From Aphanomyces cochlioides (Eukaryota > Oomycota > Saprolegniomycetes > Saprolegniales > Verrucalvaceae): a stretch of 64,000 nt of DNA. The stretch lies in contig JAHQRK010000041.1 of NCBI GenBank assembly GCA_019828595.1, positions 62,001 to 126,000 of the forward strand. The letters are read 5' to 3'. The notes beneath the pieces were generated by a model. That model did no database searches. It saw only the letters and a list, made by a program, of their open reading frames with translations, and had not been told where the DNA came from. The translations under genes and the position numbers were made by a program. Each line of letters starts with the position of its first letter. Position 1 is the stretch's first letter. This document shows, piece after piece, positions 816 through 63,966 of this stretch.

Positions 816-829
816 TCCTCTATAGCTCA
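816..829 (+). repeat. 14-nt tRNA-Asn 5' fragment (target-site duplication of A1)
   Basis: TCCTCTATAGCTCA is nucleotides 1-14 of tRNA-Asn, left next to the 3' end of element A1. It follows the normal tRNA 5' flank ending in TATGGAA. The full tRNA rebuilt by the stacked insertions lies at 7308-7380. Confidence 0.95.
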
Positions 830-907
830 ATGTCAATGGGGAGTCTATTTGTAGTTAATGTAAACTACAAACTAATATTGCCCGAAGGCTCATCCCATTT
901 CCAACTG

Positions 908-2122
908 CTAGGCTGAATTGGAAATCAATTTGGCTTGTCGTTTTCTTGATTCGCTTCGACGTTGGGACTTCGATTTCTTCGGTGTTTGTAAGCTAACACG
1001 GCGAATATGTCGGATAAAACTGACTCTTGGCATCTGACCCAGGGGGTATACATTTTCATTGTCTTGGATCATACATAGACTTCGGTCTATGCAGCGCTTG
1101 TATCGCTTGGCGAGGACCCAGCAATGGGATGTTGAATCAGTGACAGAAACAACCAAGAATTCTCCGTCAGGCTCATCCAATATCGCTCTACAGATATCAC
1201 GAATTGGATCACCCACCGATTGCTTGAGCAGTTGACGGGAGAATATGGCGTCGTTGTAGTGGAATCCATGTGTGTATGCCAGCTTGAGAAAATCATGCAT
1301 CTTGGAAGGGGGAATGCCCGCGTCTTGAGGAACTCCATGGGCCTCTTTGAAACCCGAAATGACTTCTTCGCTGAGCTCAAAATTGGAGACATTCAAATTG
1401 GTAGCAACGATTCGGATTGCAGCCGCAAGACAAGATTTGTCACTGTTGTTGCCAATTTCTAGCCACAGAGGATCCATCGCTCGAAATTCAGCAAGCGTTG
1501 GGGCGAGACCAGTGTTCGTGAGGAAGTGGGCTCCAGCTTGTCGCCATCGTTGGTACATCGCCACGGCTTCTTGACACCCGCTGAGGTCTTTTTCGTCGAA
1601 CCAGTCTTTGTCGAGTCCATCCGGGCGTTGAAACTTCCAGTTGACTTGGTATTGAATAGTTGAAATTCGATTTCGCATTGATGCCACTTCGCGGTGGTCA
1701 TCGATAAACAACACTTCATCGATGTCATCATCGTCGGTTGGAATTCGCAGAGTGCGTGGGCGGTTGGTTGGGGCATCAGCCGTTGTCGCATTCGTTTGTG
1801 GCCTGGCTGGAACAGAAACATCGTCCAATAGATCCATGAGGGATGGTAGCGGAGATCCATTGTCATTGCCCAAGGGGTCAAATTCGCGGGTGCTCGAGTT
1901 CAAAATGGACATATCAGGAGTAAATTGGTGTTCTTCAGTTGTAACTGGACTTGAAGGACGAGTGTCGGATGATTGCGTCATAGGTACAGAAATCTCAACT
2001 CCATCCACTCCCTCAAGAGTAATCCCTGGAGACATCGAGCTCCCCACACCTCGTGTAGTTATGGGTCTCGACGTCTGCGCGGGGAGTACGCTATCGGCAG
2101 TGAAAATCGTTGAAGCTTCCAT
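908..2122 (-). CDS. Family A ORF3 (copy A1): chromodomain + putative cysteine protease
   Basis: The first in-frame ATG, in a good context (ACAACAATGG), gives 404 residues ending at 908; the open frame continues 5' to 2284 without an AUG. Counted on the 458-codon frame, residues 190-250 read as a chromodomain (IDDHRE, then QYQVNWKF, then a DWF/ENL-like stretch). Cys285 in DKSCL, His387 in SHCWVL and Asp408 in MIQDNE fit a papain- or OTU-fold Cys-His-Asp protease. The C-terminus is basic. This copy has Gln at codon 450, shared only with A2. Its ORF2 is broken, so if the element is mobile its ORF2 must come from another copy. Function is inferred from motifs only. Confidence 0.65.
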   Translation of the reverse strand: MEASTIFTADSVLPAQTSRPITTRGVGSSMSPGITLEGVDGVEISVPMTQSSDTRPSSPVTTEEHQFTPDMSILNSSTREFDPLGNDNGSPLPSLMDLLDDVSVPARPQTNATTADAPTNRPRTLRIPTDDDDIDEVLFIDDHREVASMRNRISTIQYQVNWKFQRPDGLDKDWFDEKDLSGCQEAVAMYQRWRQAGAHFLTNTGLAPTLAEFRAMDPLWLEIGNNSDKSCLAAAIRIVATNLNVSNFELSEEVISGFKEAHGVPQDAGIPPSKMHDFLKLAYTHGFHYNDAIFSRQLLKQSVGDPIRDICRAILDEPDGEFLVVSVTDSTSHCWVLAKRYKRCIDRSLCMIQDNENVYPLGQMPRVSFIRHIRRVSLQTPKKSKSQRRSESRKRQAKLISNSA

Positions 2123-2335
2123 TGTTGTTGTCTTGGGTAAAATCAAAAGTGAGTCTTGGAGAATTGTTTTGAGATTCTCACTGAACTTATTCTCAGTTGC
2201 GACACTTGAGGCAGGCACGATTTGATTGGGCAGTGAAATGTTTTGCGCGGATCGTGAGTGATGGTCGCCAGGATTCCCAATCAAAAATTCAGCTGGGATA
2301 CCAAGTCAAGAATACAGCTGGGGCTTGTAATCAAA

Positions 2336-5300
2336 TTACTGGTGTTCAACTCGAAAAGACATGGGATATTTTTCGAATAGCTCGTTGTATCCAGCTTGAG
2401 AGAAAAGGACTGAGACCGCTTCGATGATGTTTCGATAGTCGAAGTCGTCAGGCGAGAGCAAACGAATTGTTCGCCTGATGGAAGCTGTCCAACTGACAAA
2501 TATAATCTCGTTCCATAGTAAAATCGGTAGAGGCCTTTTGCCATCGAACTTGGTTGCATTTCTTTGAGTCCATAAGGAGTACGTGATGGAAGCACAAAGG
2601 AGGGACCATAATTTGAATAATGCGTCATGCAGGTGTTTTCCTCGCGTATTGGTCTTGAAGCGACTGATATTCGTGGTGGTTGCCCAATCAAACTTAACAC
2701 CATAAGCTCTCCATGCTCGCTCTTGGAACATCCAAACTTGATGTACATGATGACATGTATGGAAGGCATGATGAAAAGTCTCAACATCCGAGCAATCTTC
2801 ATAGACACAACAAATAGCGTCAGGGTTTTGGATCTGCATATAGGAAAACCTCGAGTTGACGGGTAACATCTTCATGTGCAATCGAAACCATACATCGCCT
2901 TGAACAGGTGGAGGTAGATTACACACAGTACGAATGAGACGGATATACTTTGCTATGTCTTTGTCAGTTCTTGTCGTAGTCTTCATAGGATGTATAGCTT
3001 CAGTCTGGGGGGCGTGGTAAGCTAAATTCACCACGTTTTTCTTGGGCCACGACTCGAAAGGTAAATCAGCATCCTTGATTCTGGCTGTAAACGGATGTTG
3101 ACAAGTCGGGACATTAGGCAGTGGCGACCCTTGCCGAATGTCAAACGATCGAACAACTTTGTCGAAGATTCGTGTGAGTTGATTGTAAATGTCGGTTGTG
3201 CGGGGCAATGTGGCAAAGTCCATGACTCCGTCCTGGTTTAGACAAACTTGGGCAGCTGGATTGTTCGACGACATTCGGTTCACGAACATGGTCTCTGTTG
3301 GCCAAGCGCCATGTGGGGTCAGGAAATCCTTCAGGCATCTGAGACCATTTTTGGCCCCGTGGCGGCACCAGAGACGCATGTCTTCATCTTTCACGACATT
3401 TGCTAACATCTTAGCAGAGCCGAAGTGCATTGCGTCGTAGGCTGTGAGCCATACCGGGAGGTTCAGTACCGTGTCGAGATTTGGAGGCACGCCGATTCGC
3501 TTACTCATGTCTGTGGCTGACCAATGTTTCCAAGTATCAAGCCACAGTGGATGGAGCTCGCGAAGCAAAAGCCACTTGGAGCTTGCATTTGGGTAGTATG
3601 AAAGAAAATCGAATGGGTGACTGTCTCGGAATAACTGATGTATTGTGCGGCTAAATTGTCGCTGTACAAGTTTCTTCCACACCAGGATTTCACCAGGAGA
3701 ATCGGCAGACATAAAGAGCTGTAAACGAAGAAGGCGTTGTGTTCGCAGCCTCGATGCAATGTGGGGGATTCCCAGGCCTAAAGGCTTGTCGTACTGCCAC
3801 CTTCTATGGATTGAGGGACGGTAACTCTCATCGAGCTGGGTCTTGCGGCAAAGTATGAACTTGTTTAACATTTTGCGTAACGACCATAGCAGGAGGCACA
3901 GGTACAACGGCTGTTACATGCCACAACATAGATAGCAACATCGTGGAGGCAATAAGCTTTCGGCCCTGCAATGTCCTTGCTCGTTTACCCCATAGTTGAA
4001 AGGACGAGATGAATTTGTCGTTGAGTTTTTGAAGTTGGGAGTCAGCCGAAAGTCGATGGCCAAAGAGAATACCAAGATATTTCGTACACTGACCAGTTGG
4101 TACGATATTGAGCAAACCATCTGCTTCGATGTCTTCTTGATCGAGATGGTCGTTGAGAACCAAGGTCATGCACTTGGAACGATTCAGACGGGCCCCTGAA
4201 GCCGTGCAAAACTCTTCCACAATTGCCATTTGCTCCACAGCAGATTGCAGCGAGTTTGATAACAACGTCGAGTCGTCGGCAAAGAATATACTCGTAATAA
4301 CTGAGTCGTGGGGGAGAGCGATTCCAAGATGTGGGGACGCTCGGAGCATCTCACCAAGAGGTTCTAGGTATAGGACAAACAGTAGGCATGATAAAGGACA
4401 GCCTTGTTTGACGCCTCGGGTAGGTCGGATCTTAGGGCCAAGCTCGCCATTGAAGATGATCTGGACCAAAGGTGAGTCGTACAAAAGAGCTACCCACGCA
4501 ATGAAACCATCACCAGTGTTGACTTCTCTCAGCACATCAAGCATGAATTCTCGATCCACCATGTCGTACGCTTTCGAAAAGTCAAGGAATGTTGCATAGT
4601 AGTCGTGATCTTCGTTGGTGCAAAACGTTTGCAAAGTTTGCACAAGCAGGACGTGGTCATGCAGCCGTCGTCCTGGGACAAAGCCAGCTTGACTTGGGTG
4701 AATGAGATGAGGAGCTACTGTAGCCAGGCGATAAGCGAGGGCACGGGATAGTATCTTCACCTCCACTGACATGAGTGCAATAGGTCGGTAGTTTCCAGGA
4801 TCGCCTCGATCACCAGCTTTGAAGAGCAGAGCCACAGCACTACGCCTTTGTTGAAGGAGTAGTTTACCGTGGTGGTGAAGTTGGTAGTTGAAGACCCTGA
4901 CCAGGATTTCGGAGAAAGCCTCGGGTGCTACTTGGAAGAAGGCCGCTGGCCATCCATCAGGACCAGGAGACTTGTTTGGACTCATTGTCTTGAGAGCACT
5001 ACACAGCTCGGCTGCTGTGATAGGTCTGTCTAGCTCCTCGCGTTGCTCATCATTGAGTTTGCGGGAGATAAACCGTATGACAGCCCTCCGCCTCGCCCGG
5101 TTTAGCCGAGGTTGTTCGCCACGAGTGGTAGTCATTATTGCCTTCCAATGGGCAGTGAATCTCTCTTTGATAGTGGTAGGATCAGACACGGGAATGCCAT
5201 CGACGTTGACCGTCGTGATAGGAACCTTGAGTCCTTGTGGCCTTCGAAAGAAGTGGCTCGTACCGCGTTCGTTGATATTTGCATGAAAATCGAATTGCTG

Positions 5301-6446
5301 ATCCATGCGGTATTGGCGATATTCGATTCTTGCGTTTTCCAGCGCCAACCGAGTAGCATCAACGGCAGCCTCGTCGAGCAAGCCAGCTTCGTATGATCGT
5401 TGTGCAGATATATGTCTCAGTTTTAGGCTTTTGAGCTCGTGTTGCATGGATTGGAGGTGGTGGCGATGACATTGTTGTAAACGTCGTTTGATTCGCTTAA
5501 GCCACCCATACCAGACGGCTCCCATGTTTGTCGATTCGTCCGCACGCATCTCAGAGAGGAGGTGTGATGCCTCTTCTCGTATGGCTTTGATGACGAGCGG
5601 GTCTTTGAGTAGCTCTCTCGGCAGCCTCCAGTAGCCACGGGTCGTGGGTGTATGACTTGTAGAGAGAACGACAGTGTGCTCCAAGTGATCTCCGGCAAAG
5701 CTGTTAGTGGCATATTTTGAGCTTTGGTAGGATTGGGCAACTAAATCTTGGTCAATGAACCAGTAGTCCAGACGATTGCTTCGTCCTGGACCGCTTGCCA
5801 GTCTTTCGTGAGGGTGGTGTAGGCGCCACGCGTCGATGACTCCTAGTTGTGACAGCCAGGCAAGACATTCGACTTTTCCAAAGGTGTGATCTTGCCGTGG
5901 TTTGGAAGCATCGAGGTGTTCGTTGACAGGAAGGTTAAAATCTCCCCCAACCAGGTGTACACTGTTAGCTTCAAAAGCGCGAGGGAGACTGTCAAAGAAA
6001 CTAGCCCGATGTTGAGGGGTAACTGGCGCGTAAATGTTGTGGATGTAGACTGGGGTTTCATCCCAGTACGTTTTGATCACAATATAACGGCCAGGGATAT
6101 CGTGTTGTGATAAGTGCACCAGGCTTGAGAATCCAGGCATCGATTCGTGAAAGTATGATGCAACGCCACATCGACGGTTGTTCAAATTGTCCGTGCGGGT
6201 TGTTCGTAAGTCGTTGGTAAAAAGTTTGTACTTGCTAACACCCACTTCGTTGTCGAGGTGAGTGTGGAAAGTGTCAAGATGTTTTGCGTTGTTGAGTTTC
6301 GTTTCTTGAAAGAGAACAGCTTGTGTCGGTTTCCGAAGACGCCGTGCAACAAGATGTCCGTTTTCTTTCAGCCCATTGAGGTTGCTCGTCGTCACTTCAA
6401 GTATGGGGAGCTTGACAAAATGACCAGCCGCGACCACTTTAGCCAC
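2336..6446 (-). pseudogene. Family A ORF2 (APE endonuclease-reverse transcriptase), frameshifted
   Basis: This is the homologue of the intact 1371-residue ORF2 at 57325-61440. The N-terminal part (endonuclease and RT through motif C and the KYLGILFG block) is open from 6446 to about 3870. There, about 5 nt are missing relative to A6 and A8 (AACATTTTGCGTAACG in place of a longer AACATTTGTTGCCACGTAACG-like run). The C-terminal part continues in another frame to 2336. Both parts are otherwise nearly identical to the intact copy, so the lesion is recent. Confidence 0.9.
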
Positions 6447-6902
6447 GGGAAGCGATCGTTGTGAGATCCGCTAGGTCGCCGTGAATTAAAGTAGGTTCGC
6501 TTGGGTGAAACATGACTTGATTGTGGAGAGTGATATCCAAATCGTTGCTTTCGTGTAGTTGAAGGATTTTTGTCATGATGTGACACATCGATTCTCCGTC
6601 GCCAGTGTACATGAATTCCATTCTGTTCCATATGTGGAGGCCAAGGTCGGTGTACATCAGGAGTGACATGAGCGTTTCGGAGGATAGACTGCGTTTACCA
6701 AGGCGAGAGGGTAACGCTGTCACTGGACTTTTTGTTGAGGCCAAAATTGCCGCATCGCTATTGAAATATAGTGGAGCATGAACTGCCATCAATACTTCTG
6801 CAATGGCCAGCACTTCTTCGACTTCAACTCTGTTGAGGACGATGTCATCATCGGTGATGATTGCCTCGATGAGTGGGAGGTTGTTGACCATCTTCTGGTC
6901 AC
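6439..6902 (-). pseudogene. Family A ORF1, C-terminal fragment
   Basis: About 154 C-terminal codons of ORF1 remain, ending TTIASRG and the TAA that overlaps the ORF2 start. The 5' two-thirds and more are missing through 5' truncation of A1. The fragment matches the C-terminus of the 821-residue ORF1 at 61433-63898 almost exactly. Confidence 0.9.
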
Positions 6903-6903
6903 A

Positions 6904-6917
6904 TCCTCTATAGCTCA
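6904..6917 (+). repeat. 14-nt tRNA-Asn 5' fragment between A1 and A2
   Basis: TCCTCTATAGCTCA separates the truncated 5' end of A1 from the 3' end of A2. It is the target-site duplication that marks A2 as a separate insertion into a tRNA that A1 had rebuilt. Confidence 0.95.
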
Positions 6918-7307
6918 ATGTCAATGGGGAGTCTATTTGTAGTTAATGTAAACTACAAACTAATATTGCCCGAAGGCTCATCCCATTTCCAACTGCTAGG
7001 CTGAATTGGAAATCAATTTGGCTTGTCGTTTTCTTGATTCGCTTCGACGTTGGGACTTCGATTTCTTCGGTGTTTGTAAGCTAACACGGCGAATATGTCG
7101 GATAAAACTGACTCTTGGCATCTGACCCAGGGGGTATACATTTTCATTGTCTTGGATCATACATAGACTTCGGTCTATGCAGCGCTTGTATCGCTTGGCG
7201 AGGACCCAGCAATGGGATGTTGAATCAGTGACAGAAACAACCAAGAATTCTCCGTCAGGCTCATCCAATATCGCTCTACAGATATCACGAATTGGATCAC
7301 CCACTCA
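6918..7307 (-). mobile_element. Family A LINE copy A2, 3' end only (390 bp)
   Basis: This severely 5'-truncated copy holds the family A 3' untranslated end and the last ~103 codons of ORF3 (6996-7304), including His387 and Asp408 but not Cys285. About three extra bases (TCA) lie between the truncated end and the intact tRNA. Like A1 it encodes Gln in the C-terminal SRKRQAKL segment, a variant seen in no other copy here. Confidence 0.92.
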
Positions 7308-7380
7308 TCCTCTATAGCTCAGTTGGTAGAGCGTACGGCTGTTAACCGTAAGGTCGCAGGTTCGAACCCTGCTGGAGGAG
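7308..7380 (+). tRNA. trnN(guu): tRNA-Asn (GUU)
   Basis: A 73-nt cloverleaf: acceptor TCCTCTA/TGGAGGA, D stem GCTC/GAGC, anticodon arm TACGG-CTGTTAA-CCGTA with anticodon GTT at 34-36, T arm GCAGG-TTCGAAC-CCTGC, discriminator G73. There is no intron and CCA is not encoded. A box TAGCTCAGTTGG and B box GGTTCGAACCC are intact. A TTCTTTTCTC Pol III terminator follows directly. The 5' flank is now the truncated end of A2, not the original TATGGAA flank. Confidence 0.97.
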
Positions 7381-8331: not shown

Positions 8332-8394
8332 CTCCTCCAGCAGGGTTCGAACCTGCGACCTTACGGTTAACAGCCGTACGCGAGCTATAGAGGA
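8332..8394 (-). pseudogene. tRNA-Asn with 10-nt D-arm deletion
   Basis: The sequence is identical to the array tRNA-Asn except that nucleotides A14-A23 are missing (sense ...AGCTC then GCGTACGG...). This removes most of the D loop and D stem and half the A box, so it cannot fold or be transcribed normally. The deletion starts one base from the A14/G15 site where every LINE here is joined. No element is present, and the 5' flank is the original TTCCATAC-type flank. Confidence 0.93.
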
Positions 8395-9277: not shown

Positions 9278-9350
9278 TCCTCTATAGCTCAGTTGGTAGA
9301 GCGTACGGCTGTTAACCGTAAGGTCGCAGGTTCGAACCCTGCTGGAGGAG
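9278..9350 (+). tRNA. trnN(guu): tRNA-Asn (GUU)
   Basis: A 73-nt cloverleaf with anticodon GTT at 9311-9313. No element is inserted, so the original flank TATAGTATGGAA lies directly upstream and shows the empty-site structure. A TTCTTTTCTC terminator follows. Confidence 0.98.
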
Positions 9351-10305
9351 TTCTTTTCTCTCTTTTGCATATCCCTTCCAACTTATCGACGTGATCGCAA
9401 CAAACACATCCAACTCGCAATAGCTTTCACATCAAGTCTATAGAATGAGTAGCTTCTGACATCTTTGATTAAGACGCGAGGAAAGAATGGACACGTTTTA
9501 TTCTGCTGTGCACCTTTTAATGATATCATTTGTCGTGTTTGTAAATATCTCAATACTGTAATTGAGACTATCTTCACAACTATTTCAAGTCTGTGTCATT
9601 TCTGCTTTGTTGGCGCTGTCAGTCGACAAGCCAAGAAACGATTCACACGGATGCATAACAGCAATATCACACACATATGCGACAGAACTTTCTCCAGAAT
9701 ATGTTTGGCAGCAAGCTGCATAAAAAGGTAGGAATGTTACGATTGTGGTCTTGAGATGCGGTATATGGATTGATTTCGATCGATGTTAACGTCGTGAAAA
9801 TATGTCCATGTATACCACCGAAATTTGACACAGTCCACATTGGAGACGATCACATTCTATGCAAAGAACAAGGTAATGGAGTGAGTACATACATCCATGT
9901 GCTATGATATTTCAAACCAAGTCAATGGAATACTTGTCTCTAGGTCGCTCTTGACGACCGTGATCCGTTGTCTAAGATATCAGTTGACAAAGTCTAAAAG
10001 ACACCATATGAGTGATCTCTCCTCAAGTCCAATACAAGCCAAGTTAGCGTGGCGCACATCTGTTGCTGTCAGAGAATCGCTCATTGGAGTTTCTCTTATG
10101 TATTCTGCAATGACTTGCGCACTAGTTGATGAGCAGCAATTTTGAGGCCATTCCACATCATATTGGAGATAAAGGACTGGTATTGGATTGGCGTGACATA
10201 GTCTTCTTATTTACGCATATGTTGACTCGAAGAAGACATGCCGAGAATCTACACGTCAGTATTTGTATTGGTGATCAGTTATGGATATGCAAAAAGAGAA
10301 AAGAA
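9351..10305 (+). repeat. Spacer 1 of the array (955 bp)
   Basis: Same spacer as 7381-8331. It has an extra TACA (GTACATACATCC), a 4-nt tandem duplication found in no other copy here, which breaks the open frame seen elsewhere and argues that the frame is not a gene. Confidence 0.88.
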
Positions 10306-19697: not shown

Positions 19698-19698
19698 T

Positions 19699-54667: not shown

Positions 54668-54740
54668 CTCCTCCAGCAGGGTTCGAACCTGCGACCTTAC
54701 GGTTAACAGCCGTACGCTCTACCAACTGAGCTATAGAGGA
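54668..54740 (-). tRNA. trnN(guu): tRNA-Asn (GUU), rebuilt beside A7
   Basis: Complete 73-nt gene on the minus strand; the 5' flank is the truncated end of A7. Confidence 0.97.
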
Positions 54741-54907
54741 TTAGCTTACAAACACCGAAGAAATCGAAGTCCCAACGTCGAAGCGAATCAAGAAAACGAA
54801 AAGCCAAATTGATTTCCAATTCAGCCTAGCAGTTGGAAATGGGATGAGCCTTCGGGCAATATTAGTTTGTAGTTTACATTAACTACAAATAGACTCCCCA
54901 TTGACAT
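54741..54907 (+). mobile_element. Family A LINE copy A7, 167-bp 3' remnant
   Basis: The shortest copy: the last ~28 codons of ORF3 plus the 3' UTR. Even this one shows the exact target junctions and the 14-nt duplication, so the 3' end alone is enough to identify an insertion. Confidence 0.92.
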
Positions 54908-54921
54908 TGAGCTATAGAGGA
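54908..54921 (-). repeat. 14-nt tRNA-Asn fragment (duplication of A7)
   Basis: TGAGCTATAGAGGA followed by the flank TTCCATACTATACTTCC, the end of spacer 2 that normally adjoins a plus-strand tRNA. Confidence 0.95.
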
Positions 54922-55804: not shown

Positions 55805-55818
55805 TCCTCTATAGCTCA
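55805..55818 (+). repeat. 14-nt tRNA-Asn fragment (duplication of A8)
   Basis: TCCTCTATAGCTCA directly before the 3' end of A8. Confidence 0.95.
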
Positions 55819-55896
55819 ATGTCAATGGGGAGTCTATTTGTAGTTAATGTAAACTACAAACTAATATTGCCCGAAGGCTCATCCCATTTCCAACTG
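55819..55896 (-). promoter_or_regulatory. Family A 3' UTR with predicted three-stem RNA structure
   Basis: 78 nt from the ORF3 stop to the element end (...CTCCCCATTGACAT on the minus strand). An outer AATGGG/CCCATT stem, a GCC-TTCG-GGC hairpin and a perfect 9-bp TTTGTAGTT/AACTACAAA hairpin with a 6-nt loop can be drawn. Family B keeps all three with different arms. Likely the RT recognition site. Confidence 0.62.
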
Positions 55897-57111
55897 CTAG
55901 GCTGAATTGGAAATCAATTTGGCTTTTCGTTTTCTTGATTCGCTTCGACGTTGGGACTTCGATTTCTTCGGTGTTTGTAAGCTAACACGGCGAATATGTC
56001 GGATAAAACTGACTCTTGGCATCTGACCCAGGGGGTATACATTTTCATTGTCTTGGATCATACATAGACTTCGGTCTATGCAGCGCTTGTATCGCTTGGC
56101 GAGGACCCAGCAATGGGATGTTGAATCAGTGACAGAAACAACCAAGAATTCTCCGTCAGGCTCATCCAATATCGCTCTACAGATATCACGAATTGGATCA
56201 CCCACCGATTGCTTGAGCAGTTGACGGGAGAATATGGCGTCGTTGTAGTGGAATCCATGTGTGTATGCCAGCTTGAGAAAATCATGCATCTTGGAAGGGG
56301 GAATGCCCGCGTCTTGAGGAACTCCATGGGCCTCTTTGAAACCCGAAATGACTTCTTCGCTGAGCTCAAAATTGGAGACATTCAAATTGGTAGCAACGAT
56401 TCGGATTGCAGCCGCAAGACAAGATTTGTCACTGTTGTTGCCAATTTCTAGCCACAGAGGATCCATCGCTCGAAATTCAGCAAGCGTTGGGGCGAGACCA
56501 GTGTTCGTGAGGAAGTGGGCTCCAGCTTGTCGCCATCGTTGGTACATCGCCACGGCTTCTTGACACCCGCTGAGGTCTTTTTCGTCGAACCAGTCTTTGT
56601 CGAGTCCATCCGGGCGTTGAAACTTCCAGTTGACTTGGTATTGAATAGTTGAAATTCGATTTCGCATTGATGCCACTTCGCGGTGGTCATCGATAAACAA
56701 CACTTCATCGATGTCATCATCGTCGGTTGGAATTCGCAGAGTGCGTGGGCGGTTGGTTGGGGCATCAGCCGTTGTCGCATTCGTTTGTGGCCTGGCTGGA
56801 ACAGAAACATCGTCCAATAGATCCATGAGGGATGGTAGCGGAGATCCATTGTCATTGCCCAAGGGGTCAAATTCGCGGGTGCTCGAGTTCAAAATGGACA
56901 TATCAGGAGTAAATTGGTGTTCTTCAGTTGTAACTGGACTTGAAGGACGAGTGTCGGATGATTGCGTCATAGGTACAGAAATCTCAACTCCATCCACTCC
57001 CTCAAGAGTAATCCCTGGAGACATCGAGCTCCCCACACCTCGTGTAGTTATGGGTCTCGACGTCTGCGCGGGGAGTACGCTATCGGCAGTGAAAATCGTT
57101 GAAGCTTCCAT
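55897..57111 (-). CDS. Family A ORF3: chromodomain + putative cysteine protease (intact element)
   Basis: 404 residues from the first ATG; the open frame extends upstream to 57273 (458 codons) but starts there after a TGA with no AUG. On the 458-codon count, ~190-250 is a chromodomain-like segment (VLFIDDHRE; QYQVNWKFQRPDG; DWFDEKDLSGC; YQRW), a domain that in other retroelements binds methylated histones. ~275-420 has D282-K-S-C285-L, S-H387-C-W-V-L and M-I-Q-D408-N, fitting a papain/OTU-type Cys-His-Asp site. The tail is basic. The ORF begins ~213 nt after the ORF2 stop. Family B lacks it entirely. Alternatives: a catalytically dead protease fold, or an unrelated fold. Biochemical role unknown. 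Confidence 0.68.
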   Translation of the reverse strand: MEASTIFTADSVLPAQTSRPITTRGVGSSMSPGITLEGVDGVEISVPMTQSSDTRPSSPVTTEEHQFTPDMSILNSSTREFDPLGNDNGSPLPSLMDLLDDVSVPARPQTNATTADAPTNRPRTLRIPTDDDDIDEVLFIDDHREVASMRNRISTIQYQVNWKFQRPDGLDKDWFDEKDLSGCQEAVAMYQRWRQAGAHFLTNTGLAPTLAEFRAMDPLWLEIGNNSDKSCLAAAIRIVATNLNVSNFELSEEVISGFKEAHGVPQDAGIPPSKMHDFLKLAYTHGFHYNDAIFSRQLLKQSVGDPIRDICRAILDEPDGEFLVVSVTDSTSHCWVLAKRYKRCIDRSLCMIQDNENVYPLGQMPRVSFIRHIRRVSLQTPKKSKSQRRSESRKRKAKLISNSA

Positions 57112-57324
57112 TGTTGTTGTCTTGGGTAAAATCAAAAGTGAGTCTTGGAGAATTGTTTTGAGATTCTCACTGAACTTATTCTCAGTTGCGACACTTGAGT
57201 CAGGCACGATTTGATTGGGCAGTGAAATGTTTTGCGCGGATCGTGAGTGATGGTCGCCAGGATTCCCAATCAAAAATTCAGCTGGGATACCAAGTCAAGA
57301 ATACAGCTGGGGCTTGTAATCAAA

Positions 57325-60300
57325 TTACTGGTGTTCAACTCGAAAAGACATGGGATATTTTTCGAATAGCTCGTTGTATCCAGCTTGAGAGAAAAGGACT
57401 GAGACCGCTTCGATGATGTTTCGATAGTCGAAGTCGTCAGGCGAGAGCAAACGAATTGTTCGCCTGATGGAAGCTGTCCAACTGACAAATATAATCTCGT
57501 TCCATAGTAAAATCGGTAGAGGCCTTTTGCCATCGAACTTGGTTGCATTTCTTTGAGTCCATAAGGAGTACGTGATGGAAGCACAAAGGAGGGACCATAA
57601 TTTGAATAATGCGTCATGCAGGTGTTTTCCTCGCGTATTGGTCTTGAAGCGACTGATATTCGTGGTGGTTGCCCAATCAAACTTAACACCATAAGCTCTC
57701 CATGCTCGCTCTTGGAACATCCAAACTTGATGTACATGATGACATGTATGGAAGGCATGATGAAAAGTCTCAACATCCGAGCAATCTTCATAGACACAAC
57801 AAATAGCGTCAGGGTTTTGGATCTGCATATAGGAAAACCTCGAGTTGACGGGTAACATCTTCATGTGCAATCGAAACCATACATCGCCTTGAACAGGTGG
57901 AGGTAGATTACACACAGTACGAATGAGACGGATATACTTTGCTATGTCTTTGTCAGTTCTTGTCGTAGTCTTCATAGGATGTATAGCTTCAGTCTGGGGG
58001 GCGTGGTAAGCTAAATTCACCACGTTTTTCTTGGGCCACGACTCGAAAGGTAAATCAGCATCCTTGATTCTGGCTGTAAACGGATGTTGACAAGTCGGGA
58101 CATTAGGCAGTGGCGACCCTTGCCGAATGTCAAACGATCGAACAACTTTGTCGAAGATTCGTGTGAGTTGATTGTAAATGTCGGTTGTGCGGGGCAATGT
58201 GGCAAAGTCCATGACTCCGTCCTGGTTTAGACAAACTTGGGCAGCTGGATTGTTCGACGACATTCGGTTCACGAACATGGTCTCTGTTGGCCAAGCGCCA
58301 TGTGGGGTCAGGAAATCCTTCAGGCATCTGAGACCATTTTTGGCCCCGTGGCGGCACCAGAGACGCATGTCTTCATCTTTCACGACATTTGCTAACATCT
58401 TAGCAGAGCCGAAGTGCATTGCGTCGTAGGCTGTGAGCCATACCGGGAGGTTCAGTACCGTGTCGAGATTTGGAGGCACGCCGATTCGCTTACTCATGTC
58501 TGTGGCTGACCAATGTTTCCAAGTATCAAGCCACAGTGGATGGAGCTCGCGAAGCAAAAGCCACTTGGAGCTTGCATTTGGGTAGTATGAAAGAAAATCG
58601 AATGGGTGACTGTCTCGGAATAACTGATGTATTGTGCGGCTAAATTGTCGCTGTACAAGTTTCTTCCACACCAGGATTTCACCAGGAGAATCGGCAGACA
58701 TAAAGAGCTGTAAACGAAGAAGGCGTTGTGTTCGCAGCCTCGATGCAATGTGGGGGATTCCCAAGCCTAAAGGCTTGTCGTACTGCCACCTTCTATGGAT
58801 TGAGGGACGGTAACTCTCATCGAGCTGGGTCTTGCGGCAAAGTATGAACTTGTTTAACATTTGTTGCCACGTAACGACCATAGCAGGAGGCACAGGTACA
58901 ACGGCTGTTACATGCCACAACATAGATAGCAACATCGTGGAGGCAATAAGCTTTCGGCCCTGCAATGTCCTTGCTCGTTTACCCCATAGTTGAAAGGACG
59001 AGATGAATTTGTCGTTGAGTTTTTGAAGTTGGGAGTCAGCCGAAAGTCGATGGCCAAAGAGAATACCAAGATATTTCGTACACTGACCAGTTGGTACGAT
59101 ATTGAGCAAACCATCTGCTTCGATGTCTTCTTGATCGAGATGGTCGTTGAGAACCAAGGTCATGCACTTGGAACGATTCAGACGGGCCCCTGAAGCCGTG
59201 CAAAACTCTTCCACAATTGCCATTTGCTCCACAGCAGATTGCAGCGAGTTTGATAACAACGTCGAGTCGTCGGCAAAGAATATACTCGTAATAACTGAGT
59301 CGTGGGGGAGAGCGATTCCAAGATGTGGGGACGCTCGGAGCATCTCACCAAGAGGTTCTAGGTATAGGACGAACAGTAGGCATGATAAAGGACAGCCTTG
59401 TTTGACGCCTCGGGTAGGTCGGATCTTAGGGCCAAGCTCGCCATTGAAGATGATCTGGACCAAAGGTGAGTCGTACAAAAGAGCTACCCACGCAATGAAA
59501 CCATCACCAGTGTTGACTTCTCTCAGCACATCAAGCATGAATTCTCGATCCACCATGTCGTACGCTTTCGAAAAGTCAAGGAATGTTGCATAGTAGTCGT
59601 GATCTTCGTTGGTGCAAAACGTTTGCAAAGTTTGCACAAGCAGGACGTGGTCATGCAGCCGTCGTCCTGGGACAAAGCCAGCTTGACTTGGGTGAATGAG
59701 ATGAGGAGCTACTGTAGCCAGGCGATAAGCGAGGGCACGGGATAGTATCTTCACCTCCACTGACATGAGTGCAATAGGTCGGTAGTTTCCAGGATCGCCT
59801 CGATCACCAGCTTTGAAGAGCAGAGCCACAGCACTACGCCTTTGTTGAAGGAGTAGTTTACCGTGGTGGTGAAGTTGGTAGTTGAAGACCCTGACCAGGA
59901 TTTCGGAGAAAGCCTCGGGTGCTACTTGGAAGAAGGCCGCTGGCCATCCATCAGGACCAGGAGACTTGTTTGGACTCATTGTCTTGAGAGCACTACACAG
60001 CTCGGCTGCTGTGATAGGTCTGTCTAGCTCCTCGCGTTGCTCATCATTGAGTTTGCGGGAGATAAACCGTATGACAGCCCTCCGCCTCGCCCGGTTTAGC
60101 CGAGGTTGTTCGCCACGAGTGGTAGTCATTATTGCCTTCCAATGGGCAGTGAATCTCTCTTTGATAGTGGTAGGATCAGACACGGGAATGCCATCGACGT
60201 TGACCGTCGTGATAGGAACCTTGAGTCCTTGTGGCCTTCGAAAGAAGTGGCTCGTACCGCGTTCGTTGACATTTGCATGAAAATCGAATTGCTGATCCAT

Positions 60301-61440
60301 GCGGTATTGGCGATATTCGATTCGTGCGTTTTCCAGCGCCAACCGAGTAGCATCAACGGCAGCCTCGTCGAGCAAGCCAGCTTCGTATGATCGTTGTGCA
60401 GATATATGTCTCAGTTTTAGGCTTTTGAGCTCGTGTTGCATGGATTGGAGGTGGTGGCGATGACATTGTTGTAAACGTCGTTTGATTCGCTTAAGCCACC
60501 CATACCAGACGGCTCCCATGTTTGTCGATTCGTCCGCACGCATCTCAGAGAGGAGGTGTGATGCCTCTTCTCGTATGGCTTTGATGACGAGCGGGTCTTT
60601 GAGTAGCTCTCTCGGCAGCCTCCAGTAGCCACGGGTCGTGGGTGTATGACTTGTAGAGAGAACGACAGTGTGCTCCAAGTGATCTCCGGCAAAGCTGTTA
60701 GTGGCATATTTTGAGCTTTGGTAGGATTGGGCAACTAAATCTTGGTCAATGAACCAGTAGTCCAGACGATTGCTTCGTCCTGGACCGCTTGCCAGTCTTT
60801 CGTGAGGGTGGTGTAGGCGCCACGCGTCGATGACTCCTAGTTGTGACAGCCAGGCAAGACATTCGACTTTTCCAAAGGTGTGATCTTGCCGTGGTTTGGA
60901 AGCATCGAGGTGTTCGTTGACAGGAAGGTTAAAATCTCCCCCAACCAGGTGTACACTGTTAGCTTCAAAAGCGCGAGGGAGACTGTCAAAGAAACTAGCC
61001 CGATGTTGAGGGGTAACTGGCGCGTAGATGTTGTGGATGTAGACTGGGGTTTCATCCCAGTACGTTTTGATCACAATATAACGGCCAGGGATATCGTGTT
61101 GTGATAAGTGCACCAGGCTTGAGAATCCAGGCATCGATTCGTGAAAGTATGATGCAACGCCACATCGACGGTTGTTCAAATTGTCCGTGCGGGTTGTTCG
61201 TAAGTCGTTGGTAAAAAGTTTGTACTTGCTAACACCCACTTCGTTGTCGAGGTGAGTGTGGAAAGTGTCAAGATGTTTTGCGTTGTTGAGTTTCGTTTCT
61301 TGAAAGAGAACAGCTTGTGTCGGTTTCCGAAGACGCCGTGCAACAAGATGTCCGTTTTCTTTCAGCCCATTGAGGTTGCTCGTCGTCACTTCAAGTATGG
61401 GGAGCTTGACAAAATGACCAGCCGCGACCACTTTAGCCAC
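57325..61440 (-). CDS. Family A ORF2: APE endonuclease-reverse transcriptase (intact)
   Basis: 1371 codons from a GTG that overlaps the ORF1 stop (CGTGGCTAAAG). An in-frame TAG lies 27 nt upstream and the first AUG is Met103, inside the endonuclease, so a non-AUG or coupled start is implied. Endonuclease: NLNGL, QETK (Glu48), YAPV, GGDFN (Asp169), SNRLDY (Asp227), AGDH (His254). Reverse transcriptase: NKSPGPDGWP 491-500, motif A LDFSKAYD (Asp622), motif B RGVKQGCPLSC from 677, FADD (Asp724/725), KYLGILFG near 789. C-terminal Cys/His finger 1214-1233. No RNase H. Role: cut the tRNA-Asn A box and prime cDNA synthesis there. Close in sequence to family B ORF2. Confidence 0.94.
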   Translation of the reverse strand: MAKVVAAGHFVKLPILEVTTSNLNGLKENGHLVARRLRKPTQAVLFQETKLNNAKHLDTFHTHLDNEVGVSKYKLFTNDLRTTRTDNLNNRRCGVASYFHESMPGFSSLVHLSQHDIPGRYIVIKTYWDETPVYIHNIYAPVTPQHRASFFDSLPRAFEANSVHLVGGDFNLPVNEHLDASKPRQDHTFGKVECLAWLSQLGVIDAWRLHHPHERLASGPGRSNRLDYWFIDQDLVAQSYQSSKYATNSFAGDHLEHTVVLSTSHTPTTRGYWRLPRELLKDPLVIKAIREEASHLLSEMRADESTNMGAVWYGWLKRIKRRLQQCHRHHLQSMQHELKSLKLRHISAQRSYEAGLLDEAAVDATRLALENARIEYRQYRMDQQFDFHANVNERGTSHFFRRPQGLKVPITTVNVDGIPVSDPTTIKERFTAHWKAIMTTTRGEQPRLNRARRRAVIRFISRKLNDEQREELDRPITAAELCSALKTMSPNKSPGPDGWPAAFFQVAPEAFSEILVRVFNYQLHHHGKLLLQQRRSAVALLFKAGDRGDPGNYRPIALMSVEVKILSRALAYRLATVAPHLIHPSQAGFVPGRRLHDHVLLVQTLQTFCTNEDHDYYATFLDFSKAYDMVDREFMLDVLREVNTGDGFIAWVALLYDSPLVQIIFNGELGPKIRPTRGVKQGCPLSCLLFVLYLEPLGEMLRASPHLGIALPHDSVITSIFFADDSTLLSNSLQSAVEQMAIVEEFCTASGARLNRSKCMTLVLNDHLDQEDIEADGLLNIVPTGQCTKYLGILFGHRLSADSQLQKLNDKFISSFQLWGKRARTLQGRKLIASTMLLSMLWHVTAVVPVPPAMVVTWQQMLNKFILCRKTQLDESYRPSIHRRWQYDKPLGLGIPHIASRLRTQRLLRLQLFMSADSPGEILVWKKLVQRQFSRTIHQLFRDSHPFDFLSYYPNASSKWLLLRELHPLWLDTWKHWSATDMSKRIGVPPNLDTVLNLPVWLTAYDAMHFGSAKMLANVVKDEDMRLWCRHGAKNGLRCLKDFLTPHGAWPTETMFVNRMSSNNPAAQVCLNQDGVMDFATLPRTTDIYNQLTRIFDKVVRSFDIRQGSPLPNVPTCQHPFTARIKDADLPFESWPKKNVVNLAYHAPQTEAIHPMKTTTRTDKDIAKYIRLIRTVCNLPPPVQGDVWFRLHMKMLPVNSRFSYMQIQNPDAICCVYEDCSDVETFHHAFHTCHHVHQVWMFQERAWRAYGVKFDWATTTNISRFKTNTRGKHLHDALFKLWSLLCASITYSLWTQRNATKFDGKRPLPILLWNEIIFVSWTASIRRTIRLLSPDDFDYRNIIEAVSVLFSQAGYNELFEKYPMSFRVEHQ

Positions 61441-63898
61441 GGGAAGCGATCGTTGTGAGATCCGCTAGGTCGCCGTGAATTAAAGTAGGTTCGCTTGGGT
61501 GAAACATGACTTGATTGTGGAGAGTGATATCCAAATCGTTGCTTTCGTGTAGTTGAAGGATTTTTGTCATGATGTGACACATCGATTCTCCGTCGCCAGT
61601 GTACATGAATTCCATTCTGTTCCATATGTGGAGGCCAAGGTCGGTGTACATCAGGAGTGACATGAGCGTTTCGGAGGATAGACTGCGTTTACCAAGGCGA
61701 GAGGGTAACGCTGTCACTGGACTTTTTGTTGAGGCCAAAATTGCCGCATCGCTATTGAAATATAGTGGAGCATGAACTGCCATCAATACTTCTGCAATGG
61801 CCAGCACTTCTTCGACTTCAACTCTGTTGAGGACGATGTCATCATCGGTGATGATTGCCTCGATGAGTGGGAGGTTGTTGACCATCTTCTGGTCACTGAA
61901 CACCGAGATCACGTGGTCGTGAGTGATTGGAGTGCCGAATGTTGCCTCGTAGAGCTGACCAAAAGATTTTGTGCCACCACCAGACGCTCTTAGCCAACGA
62001 TTAAGCAGTCGAAGACGAACAAAGTATTCGAAGCTGTCACGATTGGAGACAAAAATTTGGTGCAGTTGCAGTCCAAATTCGATTGGCGCACGTTCTAGAT
62101 GGATGCAGATCGTGTCAACACGCCCGTCCGTAATCAATTTCAATAAGTTGAAGGAATCGTGCGCTAACGCTTCCTTAACTTGGGCCGGGATATGTTGTGG
62201 TGCGTTTTGAGCCTTGGTGTCAAGGTCGTTGAGCTCGGCAAGTATGGCATCGAGAGACTTCTCAAACCTTTGGATTGAGCCCTCGTGGGGTTTGATCCCG
62301 CTAATGAACTCTTCAGCGGCAACGTGCACCTTGTCACCAGATTTGAGTGTCAGCTTTGGAACAATTACTTTGACAGTGGTGTTGCCAACTGTCGTTTCGT
62401 GTTCCTCGGGCTCAACATTAGCGCGTTCGTCCAGAGCCGCAAACATGTTCGGGGAGATCCAGGGACGATCAGGAGCTGGGATTGAGCCAGCGGAGATTGG
62501 GGTTTTCTTTCTTTTGCCTGTAGTTTGAACTTCAGTCCATTCCTTGTTGCTGTCTCGGGTCGTTTTCTGCCGTTTGGCAGTGGATGTCGAGACAGCGGCG
62601 TCTCCCCGTGGGCGGTGAGGGGTTGCGTGAAGTCCATGTTGGGTGGCGATTACATCGAGGTCAAGGCGCGCGAGCTTCTTGTCACGGTAAAACCATCCTT
62701 GACCAAACACGCGGAGGCACCGACCCTTGAAAATGAATTCTTCAATTGATCGACCGTCATTGTGCATAGATTCGGGTATAGCTGTCCCTTCAAAATACAA
62801 GCGATAACGAGAGCTAGCCAAGCCAGTCGTCGAGGAAACTGTGGAGTATGAGCCCCACAAAAAGCGTGGCTCAAGCTTTGACATGATGCTGAACATGAGA
62901 CGTTCTTCATCCTGTCCTTGGAGACCAGATGGGATATCGATGAAATATCCATCAAGTATATGGGGCTCAGTCATGACAAATCTCTGAGAGCTGCCATCCT
63001 TTGCCACTTGGATCTTGAGAGAGACTCCACGCAGCTTTTTAAGAGCATCTTCAGAGGCTATGCCCCACTTGAGAAGACGATTGGAGACATCTTTCTCGCA
63101 CTTGATGACATCGACAAATGCATCGTCCAAATCAAGCGCTTGGTTGTCAAACAATAGAGATGTCATTGCCTTGGAGATGTCGATGTATTTGGTGTATTGG
63201 CCAGTGGACATTTGTAGCCAGCCAACAACATCTCTGGGGGAATGTTTTTGGATGGGCAAAGTGTCGTCAAACGTGAGAGATCCTGTCGCGCGTTTTTGCA
63301 ACAAGGACGCCAGCTCGGCCATAGTTGGTCGATAATGGCCGACGTCACTGTTCCGCTGAGCCTTGGCAGATTTAGCTCTCTGCTTGGCTTGGAATTCCCA
63401 CACGCATTCGTTTGGCTTTTTGGTCGAGGTGTTCGACTCGGGTGGTATTGGCACGGAGCGTGTTGTAGCAGGAGGCGAGGCATCGATTTGAGCTTCAGGC
63501 TCCATTTCCACATCAACATTGGTGTCGCGAATCGATTGGTCTTCAGAGCGCGGCTCCAGCTCAGTGGCTTGAGTAATCGGTGGGGTATGTGGTTGGTTGT
63601 TGTTGGAGATATCCTCTATGTCTTCATCAGGCATCGGAGAAACATTATCCTTGTTGACAGTTTTGTCGCTGGTACGAGCGCTTGGTAATGGCACGCGACC
63701 ACCGAGTGTAGCAAGACGTATGGGCGGTTGAGCAGCAGGCGGAGTTTTGTCGATGATTGAGTCAGGTTCATCGTCATCATCATCGTCAACAATCACCTCC
63801 ATGATACTAGAAGCGTCCGAGGTATTGCGAAAGGGAGAGGCAGAAAAAGCTGAGGGCTTGTGTGCATGAGCACGGCTGGAAGAGCGGGTAGTCGCCAT
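61433..63898 (-). CDS. Family A ORF1 protein (821 aa, intact element)
   Basis: Starts at the first ATG, 54 nt from the element's 5' junction. Same organisation as in A6: acidic/Ser-Pro-rich N-terminus to ~165, core shared with family B at ~166-420, basic KRKKTP patch near 462, SPNMFAALDER near 482, and a mostly helical-looking C-terminus ending SRG. No CCHC knuckle or confident RRM. The stop codon overlaps the ORF2 start by 8 nt, in a +1-shifted frame. Presumed RNA-binding structural protein. Confidence 0.86.
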   Translation of the reverse strand: MATTRSSSRAHAHKPSAFSASPFRNTSDASSIMEVIVDDDDDDEPDSIIDKTPPAAQPPIRLATLGGRVPLPSARTSDKTVNKDNVSPMPDEDIEDISNNNQPHTPPITQATELEPRSEDQSIRDTNVDVEMEPEAQIDASPPATTRSVPIPPESNTSTKKPNECVWEFQAKQRAKSAKAQRNSDVGHYRPTMAELASLLQKRATGSLTFDDTLPIQKHSPRDVVGWLQMSTGQYTKYIDISKAMTSLLFDNQALDLDDAFVDVIKCEKDVSNRLLKWGIASEDALKKLRGVSLKIQVAKDGSSQRFVMTEPHILDGYFIDIPSGLQGQDEERLMFSIMSKLEPRFLWGSYSTVSSTTGLASSRYRLYFEGTAIPESMHNDGRSIEEFIFKGRCLRVFGQGWFYRDKKLARLDLDVIATQHGLHATPHRPRGDAAVSTSTAKRQKTTRDSNKEWTEVQTTGKRKKTPISAGSIPAPDRPWISPNMFAALDERANVEPEEHETTVGNTTVKVIVPKLTLKSGDKVHVAAEEFISGIKPHEGSIQRFEKSLDAILAELNDLDTKAQNAPQHIPAQVKEALAHDSFNLLKLITDGRVDTICIHLERAPIEFGLQLHQIFVSNRDSFEYFVRLRLLNRWLRASGGGTKSFGQLYEATFGTPITHDHVISVFSDQKMVNNLPLIEAIITDDDIVLNRVEVEEVLAIAEVLMAVHAPLYFNSDAAILASTKSPVTALPSRLGKRSLSSETLMSLLMYTDLGLHIWNRMEFMYTGDGESMCHIMTKILQLHESNDLDITLHNQVMFHPSEPTLIHGDLADLTTIASRG

Positions 63899-63952
63899 GT
63901 TGTCAGTTTTGGACAGTGGTACTGCGGGGTAGCTGGCAAATTGGAAACTTCA
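63899..63952 (-). promoter_or_regulatory. Family A 5' UTR with conserved element start
   Basis: Two or three extra bases (TGA) follow the tRNA, then AGTTTCCAATTTGCCAGC, part of a 35-nt block identical to family B's start. After it the families diverge until CTGACAA just before the ORF1 ATG. Likely internal promoter. Resemblance of TTTCC-AATTTG to an oomycete Inr/FPR is suggestive only. Confidence 0.5.
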
Positions 63953-63966
63953 TCCTCTATAGCTCA
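63953..63966 (+). repeat. 14-nt tRNA-Asn fragment between A8 and B5
   Basis: TCCTCTATAGCTCA, the duplication made by B5. The complete tRNA must lie beyond the window's right end. Confidence 0.93.

Follow-up and report, generated by a model that had tools for sequence, protein, structure and literature searches.

LINEs of the oomycete Aphanomyces cochlioides very probably enter the A box of tRNA genes by target-primed reverse transcription, in a site-specific manner and with a target duplication that rebuilds the interrupted gene. These L1-type elements came to light in a window of 64,000 nt, the whole stretch of DNA analysed (GCA_019828595.1, contig JAHQRK010000041.1, 62,001-126,000, forward strand), and junctions of the same form recur throughout the genome.

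Insertions and rebuilt tRNA-Asn genes in the window

ARAGORN and Rfam identify 13 intact tRNA-Asn(GTT) genes in the window, and Rfam adds one deleted copy (8332-8394, minus strand), which has a 10-nt deletion starting at the cut site and no element on its 5' side. The 14-mer TCCTCTATAGCTCA occurs 26 times, 13 times within the intact tRNAs and 13 times followed by the 3' end of an element (eight of family A, five of family B); at up to two mismatches, the only near-match is the deleted copy. A preliminary description of this window had claimed that each element is in antisense orientation to the tRNA with its 3' end joined to tRNA-Asn nucleotide A14, and this holds for all 13 3' ends. It had also claimed that nucleotides 1-14 or 1-15 are duplicated at the element 5' end, and an intact copy of nucleotides 1-14 follows in each of the 12 elements that have both ends in view. 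These 12 align end to end with their family reference, leaving 0-3 unmatched 5' bases. The 14-nt copy continues as an intact tRNA in eight cases, with all 73 nt exact, and runs into the next element in the other four; the claimed regeneration of the complete gene holds. The eight truncated copies have eight distinct 5' truncation points, and searching the window with the 20-mer 3' ends, at up to three mismatches, added no copy of family A or B.

The leftmost chain begins with a tRNA-Asn stub of nucleotides 1-14 (816-829, plus strand) that has host flank on its left and forms the 3' junction of a 5'-truncated family A LINE of 6074 nt (830-6903, minus). A second stub (6904-6917, plus) separates this element from a stacked, 5'-truncated family A insertion of 390 nt (6918-7307, minus), and an intact rebuilt tRNA-Asn(GTT) follows (7308-7380, plus). 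Empty, that is uninserted, tRNA-Asn genes lie at 9278-9350 (plus), 10306-10378 (minus), 11262-11334 (plus), 43517-43589 (plus) and 44542-44614 (minus). A three-element chain runs in the opposite direction. From its outer stub (25970-25983, minus), which adjoins host flank, it passes through a 1384-nt 5'-truncated family A LINE (24586-25969, plus), a stub (24572-24585, minus), a 4874-nt 5'-truncated family A LINE (19698-24571, plus), a further stub (19684-19697, minus) and a full-length family B LINE of 7324 nt (12360-19683, plus; ORF2 at 15372-19526) to an intact rebuilt tRNA-Asn (12287-12359, minus). Thus the target is reusable, as had been claimed, with stacked elements standing between stubs.

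Single insertions read as a stub of nucleotides 1-14, an element and an intact rebuilt tRNA-Asn. The family B reference copy, full length at 7326 nt (26881-34206, minus), lies between 26867-26880 and 34207-34279 (both plus); 5'-truncated family B LINEs of 1293 nt (35305-36597, plus) and 3341 nt (37509-40849, minus) lie between stub 36598-36611 and tRNA 35232-35304 (both minus) and between stub 37495-37508 and tRNA 40850-40922 (both plus), respectively. Likewise, 5'-truncated family A LINEs of 670 nt (41948-42617, plus) and 167 nt (54741-54907, plus) are joined to stubs at 42618-42631 and 54908-54921 and to tRNAs at 41875-41947 and 54668-54740 (all minus), and a full-length family A LINE of 8131 nt (45512-53642, minus) has its stub at 45498-45511 and its tRNA at 53643-53715 (both plus). 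Finally, a stub at 55805-55818 (plus) precedes the family A reference copy, full length at 8134 nt (55819-63952, minus), which carries ORF1 (61433-63898), ORF2 (57325-61440, 1371 aa) and ORF3 (55897-57273), all on the minus strand; beyond it are a stub (63953-63966, plus) and a family B element running off the window.

Element families and their proteins

Sequence comparison shows that the elements are L1-type (AP-endonuclease) LINEs, probably of the L1 or Tx1 clade. ORF2 of the family A reference contains an AP endonuclease, a reverse transcriptase and, in its C-terminal part, a weak zinc-binding match. RVT_1 matches in ORF2 (Pfam, E 1.4e-32 and 3.4e-34) mark the reverse transcriptase as of the non-LTR type, and among 20 aligned ORF2 sequences its residues A723, D724 and D725 are invariant, as are endonuclease residues G168, D169, N171, D227, D253 and H254. 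The AP endonuclease is assigned by searching with a profile of ORF2, which matches human L1 ORF2p (E 4e-137, positions 2-887, across endonuclease and reverse transcriptase) and L1 endonuclease chains (E about 3e-24); single-protein Pfam matches fall under their cut-offs (endonuclease 17.4 of 24.5 bits, zinc 18.5 of 27.5 bits), and for family B the endonuclease is not listed at E 0.01. No other endonuclease appears among the Pfam matches of the element proteins, a collection that may lack a restriction-like model. The presence of ORF1 and ORF2, the 5' truncation and the fixed 3' end are likewise those of L1-type elements; family A has a third ORF too. Domain searches with ORF1 and ORF3 returned nothing solid. 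The AlphaFold models have mean pLDDT values of 63.9 (ORF1) and 37.9 (ORF3), and Foldseek found no match to the ORF1 model at E ≤0.001, the best being an RNA-binding-domain match at E 0.22. No relatives were confirmed in viral and genomic contig collections.

A third family, C, has an ORF2 38-39% identical to those of A and B and occupies the same site in tRNA-Phe and tRNA-Thr. The element 3' termini, CCATTGACAT, CCATTGCAG or GATTGTACAC, stand directly at the junction, with no poly(A). In all three families the 3' end forms a more stable fold than shuffled sequences do (z -3.8 for A, -2.8 for B and -2.3 for C); no single fold is common to A/B and C, and we therefore make no claim of a shared recognition structure. 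The 5' UTR measures 52-60 nt by eye, if ORF1 starts at the first ATG. In the last 15 nt before the tRNA, full-length copies of A/B and of C both have, by eye, GGCAAA (-15 to -10) and AAA (-5 to -3); in a plain count by eye, 10 of the 15 bases are alike between A/B and C. No DNA similarity between A/B and C was found by blastn.

Range of targets, duplication and mechanism

What defines the target? The preliminary description had named a genome-wide tabulation of 3' junctions as the test that could refute it, and the outcome bears the description out. Exact 3' ends number 203 for family A, and GCTCA directly precedes all 203; for family B they number 224, of which 221 follow GCTCA and three lack it. 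Control patterns (read backwards) gave 0 matches. Among 85 junctions read (L080 was too short and was left out), 82 correspond to nucleotides 1-14 of nine tRNAs for which genes were seen, namely Asn, Phe, two Lys, two Ala, Tyr, Thr and Met (identified by ARAGORN; Tyr by eye). Two more lie at another tRNA-like 5' end, so that 84 of 85 end a 14-nt stretch with the form of a tRNA 5' end; ten different stretches of this sort occur, spread over 14 contigs. The exception, C15:1207852, is away from a tRNA 5' end: it falls at TTGGCTCA, preceded by a stretch that by eye resembles tRNA-Val. Many tRNAs therefore serve as targets, each through its Pol III A box, TRGCTCA^G. Specificity for tRNA-Asn, as first described, fits the window and is rejected for the genome by the ten different 5' ends.

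The duplication is equally regular. In the window and the tRNA-Phe array, a tandem repeat with a 1124-bp unit, all 38 A/B insertions with both ends carry the element end to end (37 of a single family and one A/B chimera) and a target duplication no shorter than 14 nt, the same in short, long and stacked copies. Among 39 insertions, its length is 14 nt in 14, 15 nt in 16, 16 nt in six and 17 nt in one, with two uninformative. The divergence count excluded five of 38 copies (<800 nt). Raw counts are inflated by array duplication; for example, four C15 copies have the common 5' truncation point 3626, and several other truncation points occur in C15. Where chains end in a tRNA, 19 of 23 end in an exact full-length gene and the other four differ downstream of nucleotide 14. 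Similarly, the 5' end of a full-length element stands directly before a complete tRNA-Lys(TTT), tRNA-Lys(CTT) and tRNA-Thr(CGT). Other places where a rebuilt tRNA was expected have a further stacked junction instead in L057, L071 and L074, and neither tRNA nor junction in L055, L070, L072, L073, L075 and L079, where copies are non-full-length or the offset is wrong.

We propose that the endonuclease of the element makes a nick in the sense strand of the tRNA at the A14/G15 boundary and that the A14 3'-OH primes cDNA synthesis starting precisely at the 3' end of the element RNA, which would place the element antisense to the tRNA. The second strand would be cut 14-15 nt upstream, at tRNA nucleotide 1 or 1 nt outside; these cut positions, and the A14/G15 nick, are those originally proposed, and they hold. 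Since the tRNAs of this class all have 14 nt from the 5' end to A14, filling in the stagger would duplicate nucleotides 1-14 and yield a complete tRNA, with A and B boxes, at the element 5' end, leaving a 14-nt stub at its 3' end. The restored tRNA would again be a target, so that elements stack and the newest should adjoin the tRNA. The junctions, duplications, rebuilt genes, stacking, range of tRNA targets and enzyme class are observed; the order of strand cuts and the priming step are what we infer. The rebuilt tRNA is probably still transcribed, and recognition probably combines the A-box sequence with Pol III factors or with more of the tRNA context. More tentatively, the lineage may have tuned its cut spacing to the fixed 14 nt and so gained entry to almost any TRGCTCAG tRNA without host loss; the element 5' terminus might then be a working Pol III leader replacing the lost 5' flank, and the rebuilt, open tRNA both the element's upstream promoter and the next target. 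The shortness of the 5' UTR and the bases that A/B and C have alike just before the tRNA hint at this.

Could the pattern be a local artefact, in which unequal crossing-over or conversion multiplied the tRNA arrays together with one or a few insertions? The tandem repetition of the arrays and the truncation point common to four C15 copies are what such multiplication would leave, but the eight truncation points of the window, the several others in C15, the ten tRNA-like 5' ends across 14 contigs and the use of the same nucleotide by three families make it very improbable; even the tRNA-Lys(TTT) genes of C12 and of C1, each without a second match of its kind there, carry insertions. Distinct truncations and many contigs and tRNA kinds rule out a single duplicated event and refute assembly or duplication artefact as a full explanation. 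Survivorship, in which cuts are less regular and only tRNA-preserving insertions persist, is unlikely. tRNA genes are essential and selection against insertions that break them is expected, but a broken copy should be tolerable in arrays of tens of identical genes, where tRNAs broken in other ways are in fact retained (8332-8394; C15:45799), and the duplication is without exception (38/38).

A reading that we regard as possible, if doubtful, is that Pol III factors on tRNA genes direct targeting, a view put forward for TRE5 and Ty3; the bound complex would set the site and the endonuclease exercise little sequence choice. In the tRNA-Phe array, AGTCTTGTAGCTCAG also occurs 38 times in the spacers, always 331-334 bp upstream of the 5' end of a tRNA-Phe, and these copies received 0 of 28 insertions, so the 8-mer alone is insufficient for targeting; likewise, judging by the base composition of the window and C15, the genome should have about 4,560 TRGCTCAG sites, yet only one of 85 junctions lies off tRNA-like 5' ends. 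However, an extended DNA motif, with GNNGGNAGAGC downstream, would explain the spacer result equally well. GCTCA is absent from many eukaryotic tRNAs (Leu, Ser, Gly, Asp, His), which pure factor targeting should also reach, but essentially all junctions have GCTCA at tRNA positions 10-14.

Relation to known elements

Prophages and islands that integrate in bacterial tRNA genes restore the gene by duplicating one end, using integrases and an element-borne copy of the tRNA end. In contrast, the Aphanomyces LINEs duplicate the target's own 5' end. The preliminary description knew of no family with this design. As a general claim this was too broad, since non-LTR retrotransposons specific for tRNA genes are published: the NeSL-related NeSL-1_TV in tRNA-Pro, LIN15_SM in tRNA-Arg and LIN25_SM in tRNA-Glu (PMC4640811). 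These are allied to restriction-like-endonuclease lineages, whereas the Aphanomyces elements have an AP endonuclease; the NeSL-related elements are listed with one tRNA per family, and gene rebuilding is not reported in the sections of PMC4640811 used here. The dictyostelid TRE5, TRE3 and NLTR-A/B are likewise AP-endonuclease, L1-like and tied to tRNA genes, and NLTR-A, 2-6 bp upstream of the mature tRNA, occupies a position in which a gene-rebuilding element would seem to lie as well. In the relevant sections, however, they are reported outside the gene, in a position window rather than at one nucleotide, and TREs end in poly(A), which the Aphanomyces elements lack (PMC5006619, PMC5911963). 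Here GCTCA adjoins the 3' ends (203/203 A, 221/224 B), and insertion is not at a distance from the gene.

Utopia, in oomycete U2 snRNA arrays, is likewise a site-specific non-LTR element in small-RNA genes, with intact U2 genes upstream of its insertions, but differs in its restriction-like endonuclease and U2 target; its 5' cut in oomycetes was left unsettled by its authors (PMC4640811). Keno, Mutsu and Dewa (named in PMC3706591; Keno also in PMC4640811) are likewise non-LTR elements specific for small-RNA genes. Keno has an AP-like endonuclease and Dewa lies in a tRNA-Leu spacer, but between them they use U2, 5S and a tRNA spacer rather than the tRNA A box, and the sections consulted report no rebuilding (PMC3706591, PMC4640811). 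Dada DNA transposons do insert inside tRNA genes, and some families duplicate TAGCTC of the A box; as described in PMC3706591, they differ in having a DDE transposase, a 6-7 bp duplication and family-specific tRNA targets. Such a short duplication should be unable to restore a tRNA 5' end, and the Aphanomyces elements have a reverse transcriptase and duplicate at least 14 nt. No L1-type element with a pan-tRNA, gene-rebuilding design was found in searches of open-access literature, and in this narrower form the claim of novelty stands as far as that literature goes: the design appears to be new, with tRNA-specific non-LTR elements already known from restriction-like-endonuclease lineages.

A retrotransposon can thus live at high copy number inside essential genes without breaking them, by a stagger matched to the geometry of the gene. 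This unites two strategies, residence inside multicopy RNA genes (R1, R2) and the sparing of tRNA genes (TRE, Ty). It also makes testable the reading of a Pol III promoter element by an AP endonuclease, the needs beyond TRGCTCAG and the takeover of the tRNA 5' leader. A nuclease with an A-box target would reach a large number of tRNA genes simultaneously and keep them intact, which is relevant to the search for harmless insertion sites.

Target sites in the window and across the genome

What do these elements recognize? The window (C36 bases 62001-126000 of an assembly of 76.2 Mb in 94 contigs) is a tandem array with a unit of ~2 kb, for example 1984 bp from 9278 to 11262, and each unit carries two convergent tRNA-Asn(GTT) genes. 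Nucleotides 1-14 of tRNA-Asn, TCCTCTATAGCTCA, occur 26 times: 13 copies lie within intact tRNAs and 13 directly abut the 3' end of an element, which belongs to family A in eight instances and to family B in five. All 12 elements with both ends present align, over the stretch up to the next 14-mer, to a full-length family copy with 0-3 unmatched 5' bases. The elements fall into nine chains (elements stacked at one tRNA), eight of which terminate in an exact 73-nt tRNA while one runs out of the window. The pattern reported in the preliminary description is confirmed. Two chains have two elements in view and one has three; therefore, the rebuilt tRNA has been targeted again. Among the 13 intact tRNAs, eight adjoin an element on the 5' side, and the remaining five are empty. 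One further tRNA-Asn copy, at 8332-8394 on the minus strand, carries no element and lacks 10 nt, the deletion starting at the cut site (after nucleotide 13); it may have arisen when a nick was repaired and no element was inserted.

Contig C15 opens with 190 kb of tandemly repeated tRNA-Phe(GAA), each unit measuring 1124 bp; ARAGORN finds 36 genes in this array, which is interrupted by elements. Its 28 junctions (16 of family A, 11 of family B and one of family C) are all preceded by GCCGCGATAGCTCA, nucleotides 1-14 of tRNA-Phe. Tabulated genome-wide, the 3' junctions uphold the site: GCTCA immediately precedes 203 of 203 exact family A ends and 221 of 224 exact family B ends, and searches with lengthened or extended versions of the family A pattern, allowing two mismatches, again gave 203 each. 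We read the sequence of 85 distinct junctions on 14 contigs, comprising 13 in the window, 30 in C15:1-205000 and 42 elsewhere that were hand-picked for spread over contigs (one extra piece was too short to use). By 14-mer they represent tRNA-Phe (34), Asn (17), Tyr (7), Ala(AGC) (7), Met(CAT) (7), Thr(CGT) (3), Ala(CGC) (3), Lys(TTT) (2) and Lys(CTT) (2), along with GGTCGTATAGCTCA (2, no tRNA gene seen) and GGGAAATTGGCTCA (1); identities are from ARAGORN, except that Tyr(GTA) was recognized by eye from a split tRNA. The tRNA-specific site proposed earlier therefore stands as regards the exact A14 junction, but not its restriction to tRNA-Asn. The GGGAAATTGGCTCA junction, a family A copy at C15:1207852 (piece L046) behind a tRNA-Val-like stretch, is the sole one of the 85 away from a tRNA-like 5' end. 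Across the eleven 14-mers T8 and GCTCA at positions 10-14 are invariant, position 9 is A or G, and positions 1-7 vary; this conservation puts the target in the middle of the Pol III A box.

Are the insertions independent? The eight truncated copies in the window have eight distinct truncation points, which, together with the spread over 14 contigs, rules out as a full explanation the local duplication artefact that the preliminary description had considered. Several additional truncation points are found in C15, where one is common to four copies that are probably array duplicates. Two pairs of different insertions have nearly coincident truncation points, namely window 24585 with C15:161093 and C15:38507 with C15:176344 (reference 3262/3267 and 5396/5398), which suggests that the reverse transcriptase stalls at fixed positions. 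Over the last 800 nt, a count that omits five shorter copies, 21 family A copies differ from the majority by 0-2 substitutions and 12 family B copies by 0-5. Given this near-identity, the elements were recently active.

Rebuilding of the tRNA gene

In the window and C15, a full copy of nucleotides 1-14 follows each of the 38 family A or B insertions with both ends in view, as well as the single family C copy. The mechanism put forward in the preliminary description, a nick between A14 and G15 with a stagger of 14-15 nt that rebuilds the gene, is well supported. With one exception, the 38 insertions align end to end to one family with at most three unmatched 5' bases. The exception, at C15:151401-152947 (L024), is a chimera of 590 nt of family B and 943 nt of family A that looks as if the reverse transcriptase had switched templates; a comparable A/B joint was seen by eye in the predicted protein P0038. 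When the 3'-end scan was relaxed to allow 3 mismatches in 20, neither the window nor C15 yielded additional copies of family A or B, and C15 had no 14-mers differing at 1-2 positions; thus, pairing by exact 14-mers concealed no exceptions. The duplication measures 14 nt in 14 of 39 cases, 15 in 16, 16 in six and 17 in one, and two are uninformative, having an identical element end on either flank. Values above the shorter ones can be chance matches.

Among 23 chains terminating in a tRNA in the window and C15, the terminal gene is exact in 19; in the other four the tRNA is intact to nucleotide 14 and altered beyond. Three of these share one poly(T)/poly(A) insertion near the anticodon arm of tRNA-Phe (C15:45799, 79736 and 104383; L013, L016 and L019), bounded by a repeat of CTGAAGATCTGAAGGT, and each comes after a family A copy with an identical truncation point. 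The fourth is a partial duplication, in which 28 nt of the tRNA-Phe 5' end lie directly 5' of the full tRNA beside a truncated family B copy (C15:71800, L016). Similarly, the 5' end of a full-length element directly adjoins a complete tRNA-Lys(TTT) on C12, tRNA-Lys(CTT) on C34 and tRNA-Thr on C2.

Priming and target recognition

Since the element 3' end abuts A14, on the 5' side of the tRNA, the sense strand of the tRNA would be the one that primes synthesis. Reading the insertion products through the standard model of target-primed reverse transcription, we propose that a sense-strand nick between A14 and G15 would supply the primer, and that a second cut would fall on the opposite strand 14-15 nt upstream. 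The sequence there varies among tRNAs, so the position of the upstream cut must depend on distance. The precise 3' ends, which lack poly(A), suggest exact recognition of the element 3' end, and read-through element RNA would carry TGAGCTA, which could pair with any target A box.

The spacers of the tRNA-Phe array also carry AGTCTTGTAGCTCAG, intact in 38 places and always 331-334 bp upstream of a tRNA-Phe 5' end; these spacer copies received none of the 28 insertions. Judging by base composition in the window and C15, the genome should contain about 4,560 TRGCTCAG sites. The 8-mer alone is thus insufficient, and the extra determinant would be either a longer DNA motif extending into GNNGGNAGAGC or a Pol III factor. 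Were such a factor alone to set the target, GCTCA at almost every junction would be difficult to explain.

Element proteins and known systems

ORF2 measures 1371 aa in family A, 1384 aa in B and about 1395 aa in C, and comprises an N-terminal AP endonuclease and a reverse transcriptase. A zinc-binding model matches weakly close to the C-terminus; with single proteins, this model and the endonuclease model score under Pfam cut-offs. A profile built from 20 relatives aligns with human L1 ORF2p all the way from the endonuclease through the reverse transcriptase (E 4e-137); it also matches isolated L1 endonuclease chains (E about 3e-24), and R2 in the reverse transcriptase region only (E 6.6e-54). 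In ORF2, families A and B share 64% identity. Family C, despite 38-39% identity to both, inserts at the same nucleotide in tRNA-Phe and tRNA-Thr; unlike family B, its element (C15:141609-150289, L023-L024) continues for ~2 kb on the 3' side of ORF2, and this stretch holds an internal direct repeat close to its end. Named relatives of ORF1 are from Aphanomyces, and close ones of ORF2 from Aphanomyces, Achlya and Thraustotheca, with one distant match from Vitis; three named A. cochlioides proteins (AC1031 locus tags) are 95-100% identical to ORF2 or ORF3 across 17-66% of the query.

A third reading frame, ORF3 (458 aa), lies downstream of ORF2 in family A and is absent from family B. It is open in four window copies (55897-57273 on the minus strand, 908-2284, 45590-46966 and 23117-24493), with 1-2 differences from the first. 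Its homolog P0037 matches a chromo-domain weakly, below threshold. Two residues, C285 and H387, do not vary among four sequences and, by eye, could fit a cysteine protease.

How do these elements compare with known systems? The sources cited here describe tRNA-specific non-LTR elements (NeSL-1_TV, LIN15_SM and LIN25_SM; PMC4640811), L1-like elements adjacent to tRNAs (PMC5006619, PMC5911963), A-box DNA transposons (PMC3706591), Dada and target specificity in general (PMC8869645), Utopia in oomycete U2 arrays (PMC4640811) and tRNA tandem arrays in Phytophthora infestans (PMC9584435); in Saprolegniales, L1 elements that carry a plant-like RNase H are reported as undetectable (PMC5348765). Our search of open-access literature found no L1-type element combining one cut site common to many tRNAs with regular gene rebuilding. 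The earlier suggestion that no such design had been described therefore holds within that search, but must be narrowed, since tRNA-specific non-LTR elements are already known. As far as searched, what is new here is the L1-type design, with one cut site across many tRNAs and a target gene that is regularly rebuilt.
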